Positions 6,269 through 20,312 of a stretch of DNA of 64,000 bases are shown here, piece by piece. Numbering within the stretch: the stretch's first letter is position 1; each line of letters opens with the position of its first letter. A program made the translations under genes and the position numbers. The DNA is from Saccharomonospora viridis DSM 43017. GTDB lineage: Bacteria > Actinomycetota > Actinomycetes > Mycobacteriales > Pseudonocardiaceae. The notes under the pieces were generated by a model. The model saw nothing but the letters and a program-made list of their open reading frames with translations, was not told where the DNA came from and searched no databases. The stretch covers positions 3,126,001 through 3,190,000 of the forward strand of contig NC_013159.1 in assembly GCF_000023865.1 (NCBI RefSeq), given 5' to 3'.

Positions 6269-8107
6269 TTGACCACTCAGCCATCCGTCGCAGCCCAGAT
6301 CGAGGGCCAGACCATCGCCAAGCTGCTCCGCCGCAATGCCACCGAGTTCGCCGACCTACCGGCCCTGACCTCCCTGGACGATCCCGACAGCCCCACGCTG
6401 AGCTGGGCGGAAGTACGCGAACAGGCCGCCGCCGTCGCGCACGGACTCGCCGACCTCGGCCTCCGCTCGGGCCAACGCATGATCATCATGTCGCCCAGTC
6501 GCCCCGAGCACATCATCGCCGATCTGGCCGCCACCAACCTCGCGGCCATCCCCTGCACCGCGTACTCGACGTTGAGCAGCGAACAAATCCGTTACGTGGT
6601 CAACCACAGCGCCGCTCCGATCGCGGTCGTCGCGGGTGAGGAGGAACTGACTCGATGGCGCCCGGTGCTCGACGAGTTACCGGCCTTGCGCCACATCATC
6701 ATCCTCGATGACGACACCGACGACATCACTGCCGAGGATGAACGGTTCGTCTCCTATGCGAAGCTGCGGGAACGCGGAACCGCCCTCCACGCGCAATCCC
6801 CGTCGACGTTCGAACAGTGGACCGACGAGATCGGACCCGACGACCCGCTGTCGATGATCTACACGTCGGGCACCACGGGCACTCCCAAGGGAGTGGTGCT
6901 TTCCCACCGCAACGCCATTCACGAAGCCGTCGCCGTGTATGCGCTCCACAACGCGCCCCCACACATCTCGAACATCGCCTACCTGCCGCTCGCACACATC
7001 GCCGAACGCGAACTGTCGATCTACATGCCCGTGGTGCACGCCGGCCACGTCCACACGCTCGCCGACCCGGGCGACATCGCCAGCGCACTCAGCCGGGTTC
7101 GGCCCGACTCGCTCTTCGGCGTGCCCAGGGTGTGGGAGAAGATGGTGGCAGGGATGAAGAGCATGCTCACCGGCGTGCCCGGCGACCGGCGTGAAGCCCT
7201 GTTGGCCGCCAACGAACTGCTACAAACGGGCTACAAACTGCGTAGCGAGGGCAAAGAGGTACCGCAGGAGCTGGCGGACCGCATCGCGGAAACCGACCGC
7301 ACCGTGCTCGCCCCCATCCGGCAGATGCTGGGCCTGGACGGACTGATCTTCGCCTCCAGCGGCGCGGCCGCGCTCCCTCTCGAGGTGCTGTACTTCATCG
7401 CGGGTCTCGGGGTCGAGATCCATGAGGTGTGGGGCCTGTCGGAGACCGCGGGTGCCGTCACGAGCAACTGCGCCGACGCCTTCAAAGCCGGGACGGTGGG
7501 TCGCCCGATCGCCGATGTCGAGGTCAAAGTCGCCGACGACGGTGAGTTGTTGGTCCGGGGCCCCATCGTGTTCCTCGGCTACCTGCAGGAGGACGGAACG
7601 ATCGAATCGGCCACCGACGCCGACGGCTGGTTCGCCACGGGCGACATCGGTTCGATGGACGACGACGGGTTCGTCACCATCACCGACCGGAAGAAGGAAC
7701 TCATCATCACCTCCGGGGGCAAGAACATCGCCCCGACCAAGATCGAGAGCCTGCTCAAGGAACATCCGCTCATCGGCCAGGCCATCGCGATCGGCGACAA
7801 TCGGCCCTACCTCACGGCGCTCATCGTGCTCGACGACGAGATGGCCCCCTCCTGGGCGGCGGCCCGCGGCATCGAGTCGGACGACCTCGCCACGTTGGCC
7901 GAACATCCCGCCGTGCGCGCCGAGATCGACCGGGCGGTCGACGCGGCCAACGAACGGTTGGCCAGGGTGGAGCAGGTGAAACGCTATCGCCTGTTGACCG
8001 AAACGTGGACCCCCGACAGCGGCGAACTCACCCCGACACTGAAATTGAAACGCCGTGTCATCGTCGATCGGTACCACTCGGACATCGAAGCGCTCTACCG
8101 GAATTGA
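6269..8107 (+). CDS. Long-chain acyl-CoA synthetase (AMP-forming, FadD15-like)
   Basis: 612 residues. The start is a TTG at 6269, chosen because GAGGAGG lies 6 nt upstream; the in-frame GTG at 6254 overlaps that ribosome-binding site. The adenylate-forming signature YTSGTTGTPKGVV appears near residue 200. WGLSETAG follows near 388, then the TGDIG core and the hinge/A8 region (DRKKELIITSGGKNIAPTKIE), with a C-terminal lysine in TPTLKLKRRVI. The enzyme activates fatty acids with ATP and CoA for beta-oxidation or lipid synthesis. Its length and motif spacing match the actinobacterial FadD15 group. It stands alone on the plus strand. Confidence 0.92.
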   Translation: MTTQPSVAAQIEGQTIAKLLRRNATEFADLPALTSLDDPDSPTLSWAEVREQAAAVAHGLADLGLRSGQRMIIMSPSRPEHIIADLAATNLAAIPCTAYSTLSSEQIRYVVNHSAAPIAVVAGEEELTRWRPVLDELPALRHIIILDDDTDDITAEDERFVSYAKLRERGTALHAQSPSTFEQWTDEIGPDDPLSMIYTSGTTGTPKGVVLSHRNAIHEAVAVYALHNAPPHISNIAYLPLAHIAERELSIYMPVVHAGHVHTLADPGDIASALSRVRPDSLFGVPRVWEKMVAGMKSMLTGVPGDRREALLAANELLQTGYKLRSEGKEVPQELADRIAETDRTVLAPIRQMLGLDGLIFASSGAAALPLEVLYFIAGLGVEIHEVWGLSETAGAVTSNCADAFKAGTVGRPIADVEVKVADDGELLVRGPIVFLGYLQEDGTIESATDADGWFATGDIGSMDDDGFVTITDRKKELIITSGGKNIAPTKIESLLKEHPLIGQAIAIGDNRPYLTALIVLDDEMAPSWAAARGIESDDLATLAEHPAVRAEIDRAVDAANERLARVEQVKRYRLLTETWTPDSGELTPTLKLKRRVIVDRYHSDIEALYRN

Positions 8108-8618: not shown

Positions 8619-9827
8619 ATGACGAAGTTGGTAACTACCACGACAGCGCCCCGGATGAGCGACGCTCTCCGCAACCGGGAGTTCCGTGCCCTGTGGTTCG
8701 CGGAGGCCCAATCAGTCCTCGGCGACCATCTGACGACGGTGGCGTTGTCCATCGTGGTGTACGGCCGCACGGGTTCGGCGTTATGGGCAGCCGTGGTGTA
8801 CGCGCTGACCTTCCTGCCCGCTCTCGCGGGTGGTCTCGGACTCTCCCAGATCGCCGACAGACGGCCCCGGAAAACCGTGCTCGTCGTGTCCTTCGTCATG
8901 CAGGCGGTGTTCGTGGGGACCATGGCGATCCCCGGAACACCGCTGGCCGTGCTGGTCACGCTGGTCGTGTTGGCCCGGCTGGCCGGAGCACCGGCCAACG
9001 CGGCACAAAACGCGTTGACCAGGGAGGTCTTCGCCGACGACGAGCTGTACCTGCGCAGTCAGGACCTGCGGGGTATCACCACCAACATCGGCATGCTCAT
9101 CGGTCTCGGCGGCGGGGGGTTGCTGGTCACGTCGCTCGGCCCCTCGTGGGCGCTGGCCCTTGACGCCCTGACCTTCCTCGTGGCCGCGGCGCTCGTGCAA
9201 TTCTCGGTGCGACAGCGTCCCGTTCCCGGCGACCCTGGCGACGGTTGGTTCAGCGCCGTGCGATGGGTATGGGGACAACGCCGCTTACGAGTGTTGCTGG
9301 CGCTGTCCTGGTTGGTGGGCCTCGCGGTGATCCCCGAAGGGCTCGCCGCTCCACTCGCCCACCAGATCGGCGCCTCAGAACAGGCCGTGGGGTGGTTGTT
9401 GGCCGCTGATCCCGTGGGCTTCATCCTCGGGACGTTCGTGCTTTCCCGGTTCGTCTCAGCCCAGAACCGCAAGCGCATCATGGGCGTGCTGGCCACACTG
9501 GCCGCAGCGGTCCTCATCGGTTTCGCAGCGACCCCCACTCTGCCCTTCGCTCTGTTGCTGTTGATGCTCGCTGGCGCCGCGGGTGCCTACATCATCACCG
9601 TGGGCGCCACCTTCATCACGTGGGTCCCCAACGAGTTACGCGGAGGCGCGGGCGGCGTCTACCGCACCGGCCTCCGCGTCGCACAGGGTTTGGGTGTCGC
9701 ACTCGGCGGCGTGATCGCGGATCTCGTCGGATCCGCGACGTTCACGATCGCCCTCGCCGGAATGGCGGGTGTCGTACTCACGATCCCGGTCGCCGTGTCC
9801 TGGGCGCGCATCCTGAAGACCCAGTGA
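8619..9827 (+). CDS. MFS transporter (drug/efflux type)
   Basis: About 402 residues with 10 to 12 hydrophobic spans. The N-terminal segment LRNREFRALWFAEAQSVLGD is typical of the MFS_3/enterobactin-exporter-like group, and the loop 2-3 motif is degenerate (QIADRRPRKTVL). It is an inner-membrane exporter driven by ion gradient, with unknown substrate. The start is uncertain: ATG at 8619 has no good Shine-Dalgarno, and ATG at 8655 (MSDALRNREF) fits the family start equally well. It ends convergently before the mini-ORF array on the other strand, so an export link to those peptides is only speculation. Confidence 0.88.
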   Translation: MTKLVTTTTAPRMSDALRNREFRALWFAEAQSVLGDHLTTVALSIVVYGRTGSALWAAVVYALTFLPALAGGLGLSQIADRRPRKTVLVVSFVMQAVFVGTMAIPGTPLAVLVTLVVLARLAGAPANAAQNALTREVFADDELYLRSQDLRGITTNIGMLIGLGGGGLLVTSLGPSWALALDALTFLVAAALVQFSVRQRPVPGDPGDGWFSAVRWVWGQRRLRVLLALSWLVGLAVIPEGLAAPLAHQIGASEQAVGWLLAADPVGFILGTFVLSRFVSAQNRKRIMGVLATLAAAVLIGFAATPTLPFALLLLMLAGAAGAYIITVGATFITWVPNELRGGAGGVYRTGLRVAQGLGVALGGVIADLVGSATFTIALAGMAGVVLTIPVAVSWARILKTQ

Positions 9828-10001: not shown

Positions 10002-10114
10002 GACCAGGGGTGACTCGAGTGCGAACCACGACTACACGCCGAACGACACTCGGCCACCGTAGCCTGCCACGGCACATCTTTCGGATCATCGGTGATGACG
10101 ATTACCCTGCGGTT

Positions 10115-10135
10115 TCAGAAGTCGCGGTCGGTCAC
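10115..10135 (-). CDS. Mini-ORF 1 encoding MTDRDF
   Basis: Read on the minus strand, GTG at 10135-10133 is followed by codons for Thr-Asp-Arg-Asp-Phe and TGA at 10117-10115. A strong Shine-Dalgarno (AAGGGGG, 10150-10144) lies 8 nt upstream. This is the most downstream copy of a three-copy array. The last 15 nt (Asp codon to stop) are identical in all copies, while the linker to the ribosome-binding site differs. It ends in plain sight of a small hairpin (10098-10086). No known peptide family was recognised. Confidence 0.6.
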   Translation of the reverse strand: MTDRDF

Positions 10136-10207
10136 AGCAAACACCCCCTTGCGATAAGAGCGGAATCCCGCTCGGAAAACCGTGCGATCAACAATGGATC
10201 AGCGGTT

Positions 10208-10228
10208 TCAGAAGTCGCGGTCGGACAT
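10208..10228 (-). CDS. Mini-ORF 2 encoding MSDRDF
   Basis: ATG at 10228-10226 starts the hexapeptide Met-Ser-Asp-Arg-Asp-Phe, ending in TGA at 10210-10208. GGGGAGG (10241-10235) lies 6 nt upstream, close to ideal. A perfect 6-bp hairpin (GACGAC/GTCGTC, 10258-10244) sits just before the ribosome-binding site, and another (10173-10158) follows the stop. Only residue 2 differs from copy 1 (Ser for Thr), a conservative change that supports selection on the peptide. Confidence 0.62.
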   Translation of the reverse strand: MSDRDF

Positions 10229-10275
10229 CAGACACCTCCCCAGGACGACATCGTCGTCAGTGCCCCAGTTGTAGG

Positions 10276-10296
10276 TCAGAAGTCGCGGTCAGACAA
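10276..10296 (-). CDS. Mini-ORF 3 encoding MSDRDF
   Basis: TTG at 10296-10294 starts Met-Ser-Asp-Arg-Asp-Phe, with TGA at 10278-10276. GGAGG (10310-10306) lies 9 nt upstream. Serine uses TCT here and TCC in copy 2, so the peptide is the same with a synonymous change. Its start differs (TTG here, ATG and GTG in the others) but is at the same codon position. This is the most upstream copy; any shared promoter should lie right of 10310. Confidence 0.58.
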   Translation of the reverse strand: MSDRDF

Positions 10297-10533
10297 GGGA
10301 GAACACCTCCACTCGCGTCCGAGTTCGTACCGAGGTCGAAAACGGCTTCGGAGACCACGCACCAATACTGCCCCAACAGTACAGTCCGGTGGGCTTGTCT
10401 ACACGATTTTTCGGCGCGATGAGATGATACTGATCACTAACGATGTCTTGTCCCGTCGTGGACTTCGTCGGACCGGTCGTCCCGGCCGAGCCGACTTGGC
10501 CCACATGACCGACACGCGCGAGAGGATTGGCGA

Positions 10534-11922
10534 GTGCCGCTCATTCCACAGGATCGGCCGTCGCCAGGAATCGTTATGCCGGATATGGCGGACAGCGGGG
10601 CCGTGAGCAGGGAGTCGAGGCCCACGCGCCCACCGAGTGATCGCTCCGGGAGTCTCAAAGACCGCCGAGCGCTACTGCCTCGTAACTGGGCTTTGTGGAC
10701 CAGGCCGAGGCGGTTCATCGTCTTCCTGATCACCATGGAAGTGTTGTCGGTGGGCGGGTTCGCGGCGGCGTTCGCCCACTCGCCTCAGCCCACCGGCTCG
10801 GACTGGCTCGAGTTCACCATCCTCGCGGCCGGCGCGACAGTACACATACAATTGACCCGCCGCCAAGAAGAACGGCGTCGGAACCGTACGAAGACCGTCC
10901 TCATCGACCTCACCGCCGTATGGGTTTTCCCGGCGACGTTGGTGCTTCCCGCCACGGTCGCCGTGTTGTTGGTCGTCGTCATCCGGATCCAGCGTTGGTT
11001 CGTCGCGCGGAGACCCGCACACAATTTCATTTATTCGTCCCTTGCGCACGGTCTTGCGGCCGCATTGGCCAATCTCTGCTACATGGCGATGGGGCCCCGC
11101 GACTGGACCACGTTGACCGCGGCTGAGTCACTGCGGGAATTCGGGCTCATCCTGGCCACGGCCCTGGTGTACGAAGGAGTGCAGGTCCTCTACGTCGGCG
11201 GGATCCTCGCTCTCGGCTCTCCCTCCCCGACCGTCCGAACGGTCCTGGGCAGCAAGGCCGACAACCTGCTGGAGGCCATCACCACCGGACTCGGAGCCGT
11301 GACCGCGGTACTGGTGGTCACCATGCCCCCCGCCGTGGCGATCATGGCGGTGGTGACCGTGGTGTTCAACCGACTCGCCGAACTCGACCAGCTGCAGGAC
11401 GCGGTCGTCACCGACCCCAAGACAGGTCTGCTCAACATGCGCGGCTGGACGGAGTCGGCCGAGCGCGCCCTCAATCGTGTCCGGCGCTCGGGGAGCACAC
11501 TCGCCGTGCTCATGGTGGATCTCGACCACTTCAAACAAATCAACGACACGTTCGGACATCCTGCGGGGGACGACGCGCTCGCCGCGGTGGCGAATGCGCT
11601 GTCCAGCGTCACCCGGCCCGCCGACCTCGTCGGTCGGTTCGGCGGCGAGGAGTTCCTGCTGCTGCTTCCCAACGCCGATGCCGCGGCCGCCGAACTCGCG
11701 GCAGAACGGGTCCGGACCACCATCGCCGCGTTGCGAATCCCCACCACCGACAAACGAGGTGCCCAGGTCACCATCAGTGGTCGCACGGCGTCCATCGGTA
11801 TAGCGGTGTTCCCTCGACACGCCGACGACCTCGACGGCCTGCTCCAGGCCGCGGACACGGCGGTGTACGACGCGAAGGAAGCCGGACGTAACCGCATCAG
11901 CTTCGCACCCGTACCGCATTGA
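10534..11922 (+). CDS. Membrane-bound diguanylate cyclase (GGDEF domain)
   Basis: 462 residues from a GTG at 10534 (GAGAGG about 9 nt upstream; an ATG at 10576 is an alternative). Residues about 60-270 contain six to eight hydrophobic helices. The C-terminal GGDEF domain runs from about 290. It shows DLDHFKQINDTFGHPAGDD and the active-site loop GGEEF near residue 370, so it should be catalytically competent and make cyclic di-GMP from two GTP. An RxxD (RPAD) five residues before GGEEF is the product-inhibition I-site. The membrane part is presumably the sensor. It lies next to the mini-ORF array. Confidence 0.9.
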   Translation: MPLIPQDRPSPGIVMPDMADSGAVSRESRPTRPPSDRSGSLKDRRALLPRNWALWTRPRRFIVFLITMEVLSVGGFAAAFAHSPQPTGSDWLEFTILAAGATVHIQLTRRQEERRRNRTKTVLIDLTAVWVFPATLVLPATVAVLLVVVIRIQRWFVARRPAHNFIYSSLAHGLAAALANLCYMAMGPRDWTTLTAAESLREFGLILATALVYEGVQVLYVGGILALGSPSPTVRTVLGSKADNLLEAITTGLGAVTAVLVVTMPPAVAIMAVVTVVFNRLAELDQLQDAVVTDPKTGLLNMRGWTESAERALNRVRRSGSTLAVLMVDLDHFKQINDTFGHPAGDDALAAVANALSSVTRPADLVGRFGGEEFLLLLPNADAAAAELAAERVRTTIAALRIPTTDKRGAQVTISGRTASIGIAVFPRHADDLDGLLQAADTAVYDAKEAGRNRISFAPVPH

Positions 11923-12117: not shown

Positions 12118-14295
12118 ATGTCCGTCCGCCGGAGACCGCATGCACGCTGCCGGAATCTGCTGGGCGGTGCCACCCGACTTCTCGTGTTGATGTTCGTGGT
12201 GGTGGGCTTCGGACTCGCGGCATCACGTTCCCCCGCCGTCCCCGAGACAGGTCCCGCCGAGGGGGACGTGGCCGACGCCGAACGAGCCATCGAGGCGCTT
12301 CTCGACCCCGACCGATCCGCGGAGGCACTGACCCTGCTGCCCTCCGACTTCACAGTGGTCACGGGGGTCCGAGTCGGGACACAGCCCGCGCTCGACGGCA
12401 CGGTCAGAGCCGTGCACGTCGGGGGCGGATGTTCCGCACCGTGGGGCGACGACAGCACCCGGTGGGACTTCGGCACGCCATGCCGCTCCCATGACCTCGG
12501 CTACGACCTGTTGCGCTACGCCGAGAAGAAAGGCAGTCCGCTCGAGCCGGACCTGCGGGAAGCACTCGATGAGCGGTTGTCCGAGGACATGTACGCCACG
12601 TGCGACATCAACCCGCAGGAATCACGGTCCCTGTGCCGAGGTGTCGCCGCGATCTACACGGCCGGACTCGTGGTGAACTCCTGGCACCAACGCTGGGGGC
12701 CACCCGTCGGCGAGCCCGTGTTGCCACTGCTGGCGGGTGTGGTGGCCATCGGGGTCCTCCTGTGGCACCGACTCCGTGACCGCCTCCTGTCCGCACCGGC
12801 CCGCACACCGCGAGCACGTCCGGAACGGACGGACCGGAAAAGTCCGGTGCTGTTCGCCACCCCTTGGACACTCCTCGGCGTCGGCAGTGTGGGAGTCCTC
12901 GTCCTCGGGGAGTCGGGGGTGGCGTTGGCCCAGTGGGCGGGAGCTCCCCCCTCCTGGCTATGGCCACTGACCTGGATCGCGCAGACCGCGGTGGTGTTCT
13001 TCTTCGCGGTGGGCCACACCAACGCCGCGACCTGGAACGCGATCGTCCGCGCAGGCGGTGGCGTCCGCGCCTATCTGGCCCACCGGGCCGGCTGGCTGCT
13101 GCAACTGGCGCTGGTGTTCGCGATCGTCGCCTTCGCCCTGCCCTTGGCGTTGGAATTGCTGCGCGTGCCCCCCTCGACCATCGACGCGGTGGTGCGGGTC
13201 GCGCTGCATCCGCTGTGGTTGCTCGGCTTCTACCTCCTCACGGTGTTCCTCACCCCGGCGATGCCGGCTCTGCAGCGACGAATACCCCGCCTGCTTCCCG
13301 TGACACTGACGGTCCTGCTAGCGGGGACTGAATGGCTGAGTACCCGCACGACCTCGTCATGGCCCCACCACGTCGGGACGTTGGCGCTCGCGCTGCTGGC
13401 CCAACACGCCGCGTTCGCCCATCGAAACGGCTTCGTACCTTCTCGTCTGCAGTTGGCCCTCAGCGGCGGGGCCGCGTTCGGCGCCTTGGTACTCGGTGTC
13501 GTGACGGGTGCGCTGCCCTTCGCGATGCTCGGGCTCGCCGAGGCCCCTCCCGCACTGGCGGGTCCGACGACGTCCGTGCTGCTGATCGGATTGGTGCAGC
13601 TTTCCCTCCTCGGGCTGTTCCGCTCCCGGCTGATGCGGACAGCGCACCGCCCGGAACTTCTGCGTGCGGCGGGTCTCGTCTCCCGCGTGCCGATGAGCTT
13701 GTACCTGCTCTTCCTCGTCGCCGTGCTGCTGCTCGTCTCGGCCGTCTACCTACCCCGTTTCGGCCTCGATCTCGGCCGGTTCGTGCAACCCCGCGCGGTG
13801 TTGGCCGTCGCGCTGCTCGTAGGCCCCGCCGTACTGGTGTTTTTCGGTTTCGAGCGGCACGTCTGGCACCGCCCTCACCTAGTGCCGATGTGGAATCCCG
13901 CACAGCATGGTCTCGACCGTGTGCTGTCCCACACCGCGACCGCCGCCGGACTGGGCTTCGCGGTCATCGGGCTCTTCGGTTTCGCACTCACCACACTCGG
14001 CACCGAATTGTCCGGTTTGCAGGGACTTCTGCTCGATCCGGTGCAGAGTCTGGTGCAACTGTTGCTGGGGATGTCGTTGTTGCACAGCGTGCGCACGGGT
14101 TCCACGAACGCCCCCAGCACATGGGTACTCACCGCCGCCGCCTGCATTCCACCGTTGCTGTCGGTGACCGCGACGTCCTCTCCCGACACACTCGGCCTAG
14201 CCGTGCACACCTCAGCCTGCCTGCTTGCCGCTGCCGCCGCTGCCGTGACGACGGCGGCCGCGCTGACATCGCCCGGTCGGCGAGCGAAGGTCTGA
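12118..14295 (+). CDS. Phospholipase A2-like domain fused to a polytopic membrane domain
   Basis: 725 residues. A basic N-terminus and a hydrophobic segment (LLVLMFVVVGFGLAA) form a signal sequence or anchor. Residues about 105-175 match the bacterial secreted phospholipase A2 fold: Cys-rich, with FGTPCRSHDLGYD holding the catalytic His-Asp pair, and later CDINPQESRSLCRGVA. From about residue 195 to the end come roughly 12 hydrophobic helices with no transporter motif that I recognise; the topology resembles acyltransferase-type membrane domains only loosely. The enzyme domain should face outside the membrane. Such a fusion is unusual, since typical bacterial PLA2 proteins are small and free. 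Confidence 0.72.
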   Translation: MSVRRRPHARCRNLLGGATRLLVLMFVVVGFGLAASRSPAVPETGPAEGDVADAERAIEALLDPDRSAEALTLLPSDFTVVTGVRVGTQPALDGTVRAVHVGGGCSAPWGDDSTRWDFGTPCRSHDLGYDLLRYAEKKGSPLEPDLREALDERLSEDMYATCDINPQESRSLCRGVAAIYTAGLVVNSWHQRWGPPVGEPVLPLLAGVVAIGVLLWHRLRDRLLSAPARTPRARPERTDRKSPVLFATPWTLLGVGSVGVLVLGESGVALAQWAGAPPSWLWPLTWIAQTAVVFFFAVGHTNAATWNAIVRAGGGVRAYLAHRAGWLLQLALVFAIVAFALPLALELLRVPPSTIDAVVRVALHPLWLLGFYLLTVFLTPAMPALQRRIPRLLPVTLTVLLAGTEWLSTRTTSSWPHHVGTLALALLAQHAAFAHRNGFVPSRLQLALSGGAAFGALVLGVVTGALPFAMLGLAEAPPALAGPTTSVLLIGLVQLSLLGLFRSRLMRTAHRPELLRAAGLVSRVPMSLYLLFLVAVLLLVSAVYLPRFGLDLGRFVQPRAVLAVALLVGPAVLVFFGFERHVWHRPHLVPMWNPAQHGLDRVLSHTATAAGLGFAVIGLFGFALTTLGTELSGLQGLLLDPVQSLVQLLLGMSLLHSVRTGSTNAPSTWVLTAAACIPPLLSVTATSSPDTLGLAVHTSACLLAAAAAAVTTAAALTSPGRRAKV

Positions 14296-20238: not shown

Positions 20239-20312
20239 GGGCCCGTAGCCCAATTGGCAGAGGCACACGGTTTAGGTCCGTGCCAGTGTGGGTTCGAGTC
20301 CCACCGGGCCCA
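20239..20312 (+). tRNA. tRNA with UAG anticodon, class I shape (nominally tRNA-Leu)
   Basis: A cloverleaf can be drawn. The acceptor arm is GGGCCCG/CGGGCCC, the anticodon stem CACGG/CCGTG around the loop TTTAGGT, the T arm GTGGG/CCCAC around TTCGAGT, and the discriminator base is A, followed by CCC rather than an encoded CCA. The anticodon is UAG (20273-20275), which reads the Leu codon CUA. The variable loop has only 5 nt, whereas bacterial tRNA-Leu is class II with a long variable arm. The D-stem is weak. It may be a specialised or decayed tRNA. Its 3' half is duplicated at 23356-23382. Confidence 0.75.
20276..20302 (+). repeat. attL-like 27-bp segment inside the tRNA 3' half
   Basis: The 27 bases from the anticodon stem to the T stem (begin GTCCGTGCCAGTG, end TTCGAGTCCC) recur exactly at 23356-23382. 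Integrases of phages and actinomycete integrative elements commonly use this part of tRNA genes. Confidence 0.75.

Follow-up and report, generated by a model that had tools for sequence, protein, structure and literature searches.

Tandem hexapeptide mini-genes beside a membrane GGDEF protein gene in Saccharomonospora viridis: a candidate peptide-cyclase signalling cassette

An array of mini-genes between an MFS gene and a GGDEF gene

The window analysed here is a stretch of 64,000 nucleotides from Saccharomonospora viridis DSM 43017 (contig NC_013159.1, positions 3,126,001 to 3,190,000), which holds, on its minus strand between positions 10115 and 10296, an array of three seven-codon mini-genes flanked by a convergent gene for a major facilitator superfamily (MFS) protein (8619-9827, plus strand) and a divergent gene for a membrane GGDEF protein (10534-11922, plus strand). 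A preliminary description of this DNA had reported a 15-nt block three times on the minus strand at spacings of 93 and 68 nt, and the repeat is exact: GACCGCGACTTCTGA lies at 10115-10129, 10208-10222 and 10276-10290, has no additional copy in the window when up to two mismatches are allowed, and reaches three matches at that tolerance in none of 100 shuffles. As had also been read, each block closes a unit of six codons and a stop, the start codon and the second residue differing between copies. In the direction of reading these are mini-gene 1 (10276-10296, TTG start, MSDRDF), mini-gene 2 (10208-10228, ATG start, MSDRDF) and mini-gene 3 (10115-10135, GTG start, MTDRDF), all on the minus strand with TGA stops and all delimited from the sequence, the repeat search and comparison within the genus.

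The claim that every copy possesses its own strong Shine-Dalgarno site stands for mini-genes 1 and 2, which carry GGAGGTG (at 10304-10310 for the former and within GGGAGGTG at 10233-10240 for the latter), and not for mini-gene 3, where the minus-strand site is the weaker AAGGGGGTG (Shine-Dalgarno-like feature AAGGGGGT, 10143-10150); at the position of the first of these sites, upstream columns reach 0.66-0.79 in the within-array profile. The hairpins said to lie between the copies proved to be nothing special: the array RNA folds with a z-score of +1.61, 190 of 200 shuffles folding equally well or better, and Rfam matches nothing in the window but a tRNA (20239-20312). A chance origin of the repeats was rejected by shuffles and by opposite-strand, other-gene and reversed-pattern controls. 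An open frame on the plus strand (10010-10606, 198 aa) spans the array and contains SEVAVGH twice; it was set aside because the minus-strand codon evidence described below accounts for the repeats.

Arrays are linked to genes for a shared membrane domain

In 52 of 56 wide loci the array is divergent from a single gene cluster, that of the membrane GGDEF protein, and the 54 GGDEF genes of the wide loci contain 52 distinct central segments; among the remaining loci, L109, L113 and L112 are exceptions and L150 reaches the contig end before the GGDEF gene. For a scan from the protein side, a search with the N-terminal sensor domain over all collected loci gave 153 distinct genes, 152 of them with at least 900 nt upstream, and these regions were read with a rule blind to the peptide, namely a Shine-Dalgarno site, an NTG start, three to eight codons and a stop, an array being at least two mini-open reading frames (ORFs) with identical last three residues. 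Arrays were found on the divergent strand in 98 of the 152 regions, as against none of 152 on the opposite strand and one of 1520 shuffled regions. The other 54 regions comprise 49 with a single best candidate, a kind frequent in shuffles too, and five with none; the array is thus frequent, not universal, upstream of sensor-domain genes. Regions found by the protein profile alone number 81 and yield 44 arrays, 31 in the 53 regions from the family and 13 in the 28 from other families of the class, with none on the other strand, the profile itself having been derived from loci found by the pattern or by the MFS protein, so that the sets are not fully independent. Beside other genes, arrays occur in three of 651 regions, one of which is a cassette missed by the mask.

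Evidence for selection at the peptide level

The preliminary description had suggested that the peptide itself, or its translation, is under selection, and comparison within arrays strongly supports this. We compared 387 copies from 98 arrays, retaining 804 copy pairs after dropping 115 with more than 50% identity in the 30 nt downstream; because the pairs and genomes are related, the figures are counts and not independent events, near-identical genes were counted singly, and in at least two cases a single gene was recorded twice (L165/L193, L219/L293). Over the last four codons, identity is 0.96-1.00 at codon positions 1 and 2 and 0.66-0.93 at position 3, and in the 30 nt past the stop it falls to 0.19-0.37 (mean 0.28); the filter itself lowers this last figure, the 919 unfiltered pairs giving a mean of 0.31 (range 0.20-0.39). 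Conservation within arrays, which might have extended beyond the ORF and its Shine-Dalgarno site, does not do so with the flank filter on or off. Since codons -1 to -3 define the array families, no change of meaning is possible there, and codon -4 is the informative, free position: 566 pairs are identical, 234 synonymous and four non-synonymous (653, 261 and five unfiltered). Codon -5 is variable, with 254 non-synonymous pairs.

Within arrays, serine codons switch between TCN and AGY and arginine codons between CGN and AGG. All three start codons (ATG 212, GTG 152, TTG 23) and all three stop codons (TGA 377, TAG 6, TAA 4) are used among the 387 copies, which are spaced at a median of 73 nt (interquartile range 69-78) and of which 377 are six to seven residues long, lengths that the start rule favours within a scan limited to nine residues. 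Because conservation stops at the stop codon and the codons vary synonymously, we conclude that selection acts on the peptide; read from sequence, the pattern is the mark of a translated product and not of a DNA or RNA motif.

Recurrence in relatives and diversity of the peptides

A strict pattern of the mini-gene has no match elsewhere in the window's genome and finds two to three matches in eight of 12 genomes of the genus, with synonymous changes among them. It also matches in 25 of 200 genomes of the family, GAC and GAT, CGC and CGT, and TGA and TAA being exchanged, and the reversed-pattern control gave no matches; the recurrence with varied synonymous codons anticipated by the preliminary description is therefore seen in both genus and family genomes. 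One family match, ATGAGCGACCGGGACTTCTGA in L029, is without a second copy and may be due to chance. A more general pattern matches 93 of the 259 family genomes scanned, spread over 19 of 46 genera, and two of 296 in a sample of the class, the window's own genome included; it was modelled on DR/NR peptides, and other peptides would escape it.

At the orthologous place in other genera the array encodes MSNRDF four times in Amycolatopsis anabasis, MSDREA eleven times in A. antarctica, and MxDRDL/M in Actinophytocola. Additional examples include MSSRDF in 10 copies, MRSRDW/MSRDW in 16 (the largest array), MRNRAW in eight, MxSRDN in seven, MxNRDN in 12 and peptides ending in SWDW in 11, while heptapeptide arrays are found in other families (e.g. 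f34), such as MRDTTWS in 12 copies and MRDNTWT and MRDNNWN in eight each. The 34 C-terminal tetrapeptides of the arrays have no residue common to all, and asparagine is last in some arrays only.

Two observations concern the arrays themselves. An MxNRDN array with 15 pattern matches in total lies at the ends of contigs C10 and C12 of genome G046 (L151 and L150), and the repeat probably breaks this assembly; in L149, 12 MxNRDN copies are held in one piece. In L035, L036, L037 and L038, degenerate copies (e.g. MSGRNF, MSGCDF) precede the first called copy and keep the TTG start, the TTCTGA end and a similar flank (TCTAGAAC or CTACAAC); decay is one possible explanation, a different role another.

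Paralogous cassettes carry different peptides

For the family, peptides were called in 111 cassette rows representing 87 genomes, and these contain 35 C-terminal tetrapeptides, single-copy peptides having been accepted only if motif-like, and cassettes without a genome handle (e.g. L049-L055) and single candidates unlike the motif having been dropped. In genomes with several rows, 30 of 31 within-genome pairs of peptides differ (paralogues carry, for example, MSSRDF, MRSRDW, MRNRAW or MRDTTWS), and the one equal pair is a gene listed twice. A partial Mantel test over 72 dereplicated rows related peptide to sensor at 0.09 (permutation p 0.011) and peptide to catalytic domain at 0.18 (p 0.0015); the test gave no sign that the peptide tracks the sensor more closely than the catalytic domain, and sensor-specific co-evolution is therefore not shown.

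The membrane GGDEF protein and the MFS protein

The divergent gene at 10534-11922 was assigned from Pfam, the profile, residue conservation and codon bias. Its start is uncertain, as codon bias favours 10693 and the sensor profile match begins at 10690. The GGDEF domain matches Pfam with an E-value of 1.3e-46 and has a GGEEF site with an RxxD I-site; G370, G371, E372 and E373 and the I-site residues R361 and D364 are invariant across 38 sequences, and we infer that the protein has cyclase activity. Membrane-anchored diguanylate cyclases, of the MASE type and others, combine a membrane input domain, a linker helix and a GGDEF domain with an I-site. The window protein is built likewise, its input domain being nameless in Pfam.

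This sensor domain (the window's 10534-11388 in translation), fused to the GGDEF domain, has no sequence match among chains of the PDB at E up to 1, and its structural model is predicted to resemble the S-components of energy-coupling factor (ECF) transporters. Compared with S-components such as RibU and ThiT, the domain differs in its fusion to GGDEF, in the lack of a sequence match to solved chains and in a computed topology that appears inverted relative to theirs. Positive-inside counts (net +2.7, +2.7 and +0.7) would place loops 1, 3 and 5 in the cytoplasm, and E112, R115, R116, R159 and N244 lie in or beside these loops. The sensor profile (A1, the N-terminal part) is found in 95 of 100 family genomes, which represent 45 of 46 genera and have as many as 10 matches each, and in 33 of 197 genomes of the class sample; in a phylum sample of 246 genomes, order and class members included, the window's own is the sole sensor match among the matches listed. 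Plasmid p1 of Pseudonocardia sp. DSM 110487 (L341) encodes a distant GGDEF relative, which no mini-gene array accompanies.

The convergent gene (8619-9827) was assigned to MFS_1/MFS_3 from Pfam, NCBIfam and locus comparison. Its efflux-like product is placed near efflux transporters (MFS_3, EntS) by both databases, below the curated NCBIfam cut-offs, and has relatives at 86-87% identity in Saccharomonospora sp. NB11 and S. piscinae. In 42 of 54 loci the GGDEF start has a homologous MFS gene no more than 3.5 kb away, and 17 of 20 additional wide loci, other families among them, have one at a distance of up to about 4.3 kb, sometimes in a different orientation; the three without it are L331 (a 4.6-kb contig), L332 and L339. 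Besides the GGDEF and MFS clusters, no gene cluster recurs in most loci and also in the paralogous cassettes.

A proposed signalling cassette and its alternatives

The decisive context of the array consists of its two neighbouring genes, for the membrane GGDEF protein and the MFS protein, and of peptides that vary from paralogue to paralogue. We propose, at a probability of roughly 60%, that the array supplies the peptide in a signalling cassette of three parts, the other two being the MFS transporter and the membrane diguanylate cyclase. Sequence comparison itself demonstrates the arrays, selection on their peptides, the differences among paralogues, the linkage to both genes, the conserved cyclase residues and a predicted fold resembling S-components; expression, binding, the activity of the cyclase and its control, transport and the side of the membrane where the peptide binds are inferences. 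Once transcribed, each mini-gene would be translated from its own ribosome-binding site directly into a finished peptide of six to seven residues, fMSDRDF or fMTDRDF in the window, with no precursor and no signal sequence, and multiple copies would raise the peptide dose. The peptide would be a ligand private to the cyclase whose gene stands back-to-back with the array, binding to the N-terminal membrane domain with its predicted S-component-like fold and setting the synthesis of cyclic diguanylate (c-di-GMP), while the MFS protein would carry it across the membrane, such that the peptide level could report export, neighbours or the state of the cell. Of the three roles offered by the preliminary description, a peptide signal or ligand fits best, and a modified-peptide precursor or a leader peptide fits worse.

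A narrower version of the cassette, in which the peptide stays in the cell, binds the cyclase on its cytoplasmic side and is simply cleared by the MFS protein, so that translation or growth state is reported and not neighbours, is tentative, its probability being a share of that given to the cassette and not additional. The absence of a secretion signal from the product and the computed cytoplasmic placement of loops 1, 3 and 5 speak for it; the topology is, however, computed and not measured, the efflux-type gene next to the array points to export, and peptides specific to each paralogue would suit exchange between cells just as well.

It is unlikely that the mini-genes act as start-stop leader elements, with the fate of the divergent RNA set by their translation or by stalling (through the nascent peptide, particular codons or the stop codon) and with no target for the free peptide. 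Very short ORFs with Shine-Dalgarno sites, the narrow spacing and the dominance of TGA would suit such elements, yet attenuation by a leader peptide needs a downstream gene in the same direction, and the role is disfavoured because none follows the window array, the next gene being convergent there and in most loci. Moreover, little is conserved between copies besides the Shine-Dalgarno site, the ORF and the stop, the window array has no special fold, and a generic sensor of translation needs neither agreement among the copies of an array nor differences between paralogues.

Slightly less probable still is a minimal ribosomally synthesized and post-translationally modified peptide (RiPP) or peptide-conjugate antibiotic, biarylitide- or microcin C-like, in which a modified hexapeptide would be exported by the MFS protein and its production regulated by c-di-GMP. 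Microcin C derives from the heptapeptide MccA, which ends in asparagine, with a ThiF-like adenylyltransferase, MccB, and an MFS exporter, MccC. The window shares a gene of about heptapeptide size and an adjacent MFS gene, a candidate exporter of the peptide, but no ThiF-like protein turned up when ten window proteins were scanned with Pfam, and the last residue is phenylalanine in the window and varied elsewhere. A gene of a few codons is also seen in bytA, the 18 bp pentapeptide precursor gene of actinomycete biarylitides, which is a single gene accompanied by a P450 (PMC8549240); here there are arrays with GGDEF and MFS genes and, among the same ten proteins (two of which matched no family), no P450 or radical SAM enzyme. 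The RiPP role is disfavoured because no modifying enzyme accompanies the paralogous cassettes; eight of 54 loci have an FMO-like gene within 5 kb, which belongs to a shared neighbourhood, and the tetrapeptides lack a common residue.

That the repeats are DNA or RNA elements, such as an operator array or a protein or ribosome sponge with incidental frames, is suggested by their regular spacing beside a regulatory gene and the GGAGG-like site of many copies, and is largely refuted by wobble variation under constant amino acids, the serine and arginine codon switches and the use of three start and three stop codons.

Relation to known peptide systems and implications

Like the cassette proposed here, RRNPP systems (Rap-Phr, PlcR-PapR, Rgg-SHP) place a peptide gene beside that of a presumed receptor, in diversified pairs (cf. 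PMC10075063). Their receptor is a cytosolic HTH/TPR protein, whereas the window's partner is a membrane GGDEF protein, and their pro-peptide has a secretion signal and is processed, whereas the window's ORFs are of six residues, tandem, each with a Shine-Dalgarno site. Agr- and ComQXP-type systems have an adjacent histidine kinase, a family that the Pfam scan of ten window proteins did not find. Parts of the arrangement resemble peptide quorum-sensing systems, bytA and microcin C, each of which departs from it in a defining feature. In the open-access literature, which leaves aside subscription papers and bioRxiv preprints, titles and abstract beginnings, with the larger result sets seen in part, gave no such system and no cyclase with a cis-encoded mini-gene peptide, and twelve peptide strings led only to papers unrelated by title. 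The pairing of mini-gene array and cyclase looks like an undescribed kind of peptide signalling.

We lean, by a small margin, towards the broader view that these loci represent a large undescribed family in Actinomycetes, with leaderless peptide-ligand cassettes forming orthogonal channels into c-di-GMP through an ECF-S-like receptor that possibly faces the cytoplasm. c-di-GMP governs development in actinomycetes. If the proposal is true, mature peptides are encoded directly by arrays of genes whose size of 21-24 bp puts them below the reach of ordinary gene finding, in a new bacterial peptide signalling architecture; several paralogues in one genome would provide several orthogonal channels, and the missing input signals of actinomycete membrane GGDEF enzymes would be supplied. 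Many paralogue-specific peptide-cyclase pairs would be useful to synthetic biology and would allow a direct test of how peptide-receptor specificity evolves, and since the arrays are easily found once the rule is known, the idea can be checked in many strains.

Atypical loci and other neighbours

Among the exceptional loci, L109 and L113 each hold a single MRDREM mini-gene (L109:7970-7990, L113:8030-8050) divergent from a regulator with HTH_31, NB-ARC and TPR domains, assigned by Pfam on the L109 copy, the GGDEF gene lying about 4 kb away. The MRDREM pattern occurs in nine genomes among the matches listed, two of whose contexts were read, and this type of partner is seen only in L109 and L113 among the contexts read; either an insertion has split the cassette or a second receptor type is present. 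In L112 (genome G186) an orphan MRNREY mini-gene (8004-8024) has no GGDEF partner nearby; its neighbours include an HxlR-type regulator and a protein of 80 aa with no Pfam match.

In the window, a promoter-like GTATCATC block lies at 10423-10430 on the minus strand. In 28 of 84 dereplicated arrays this shuffle-tested motif stands 25-230 nt ahead of the first mini-gene (0.17 expected from shuffles); a sigma-70 scan found no promoter-like site. Other recurrent neighbours of the GGDEF gene (SDR, AMP-binding, LytR and others) occur in at most 27 of 54 loci and are largely missing from paralogous cassettes; they represent the shared locus of close relatives. The window has a methyltransferase gene and an FMO-like gene 5-7 kb from the array, and a large protein with a prokaryotic phospholipase A2 domain (12184-14295) adjoins the GGDEF gene, its cluster, c3, being found near that gene in 25 of 54 loci.
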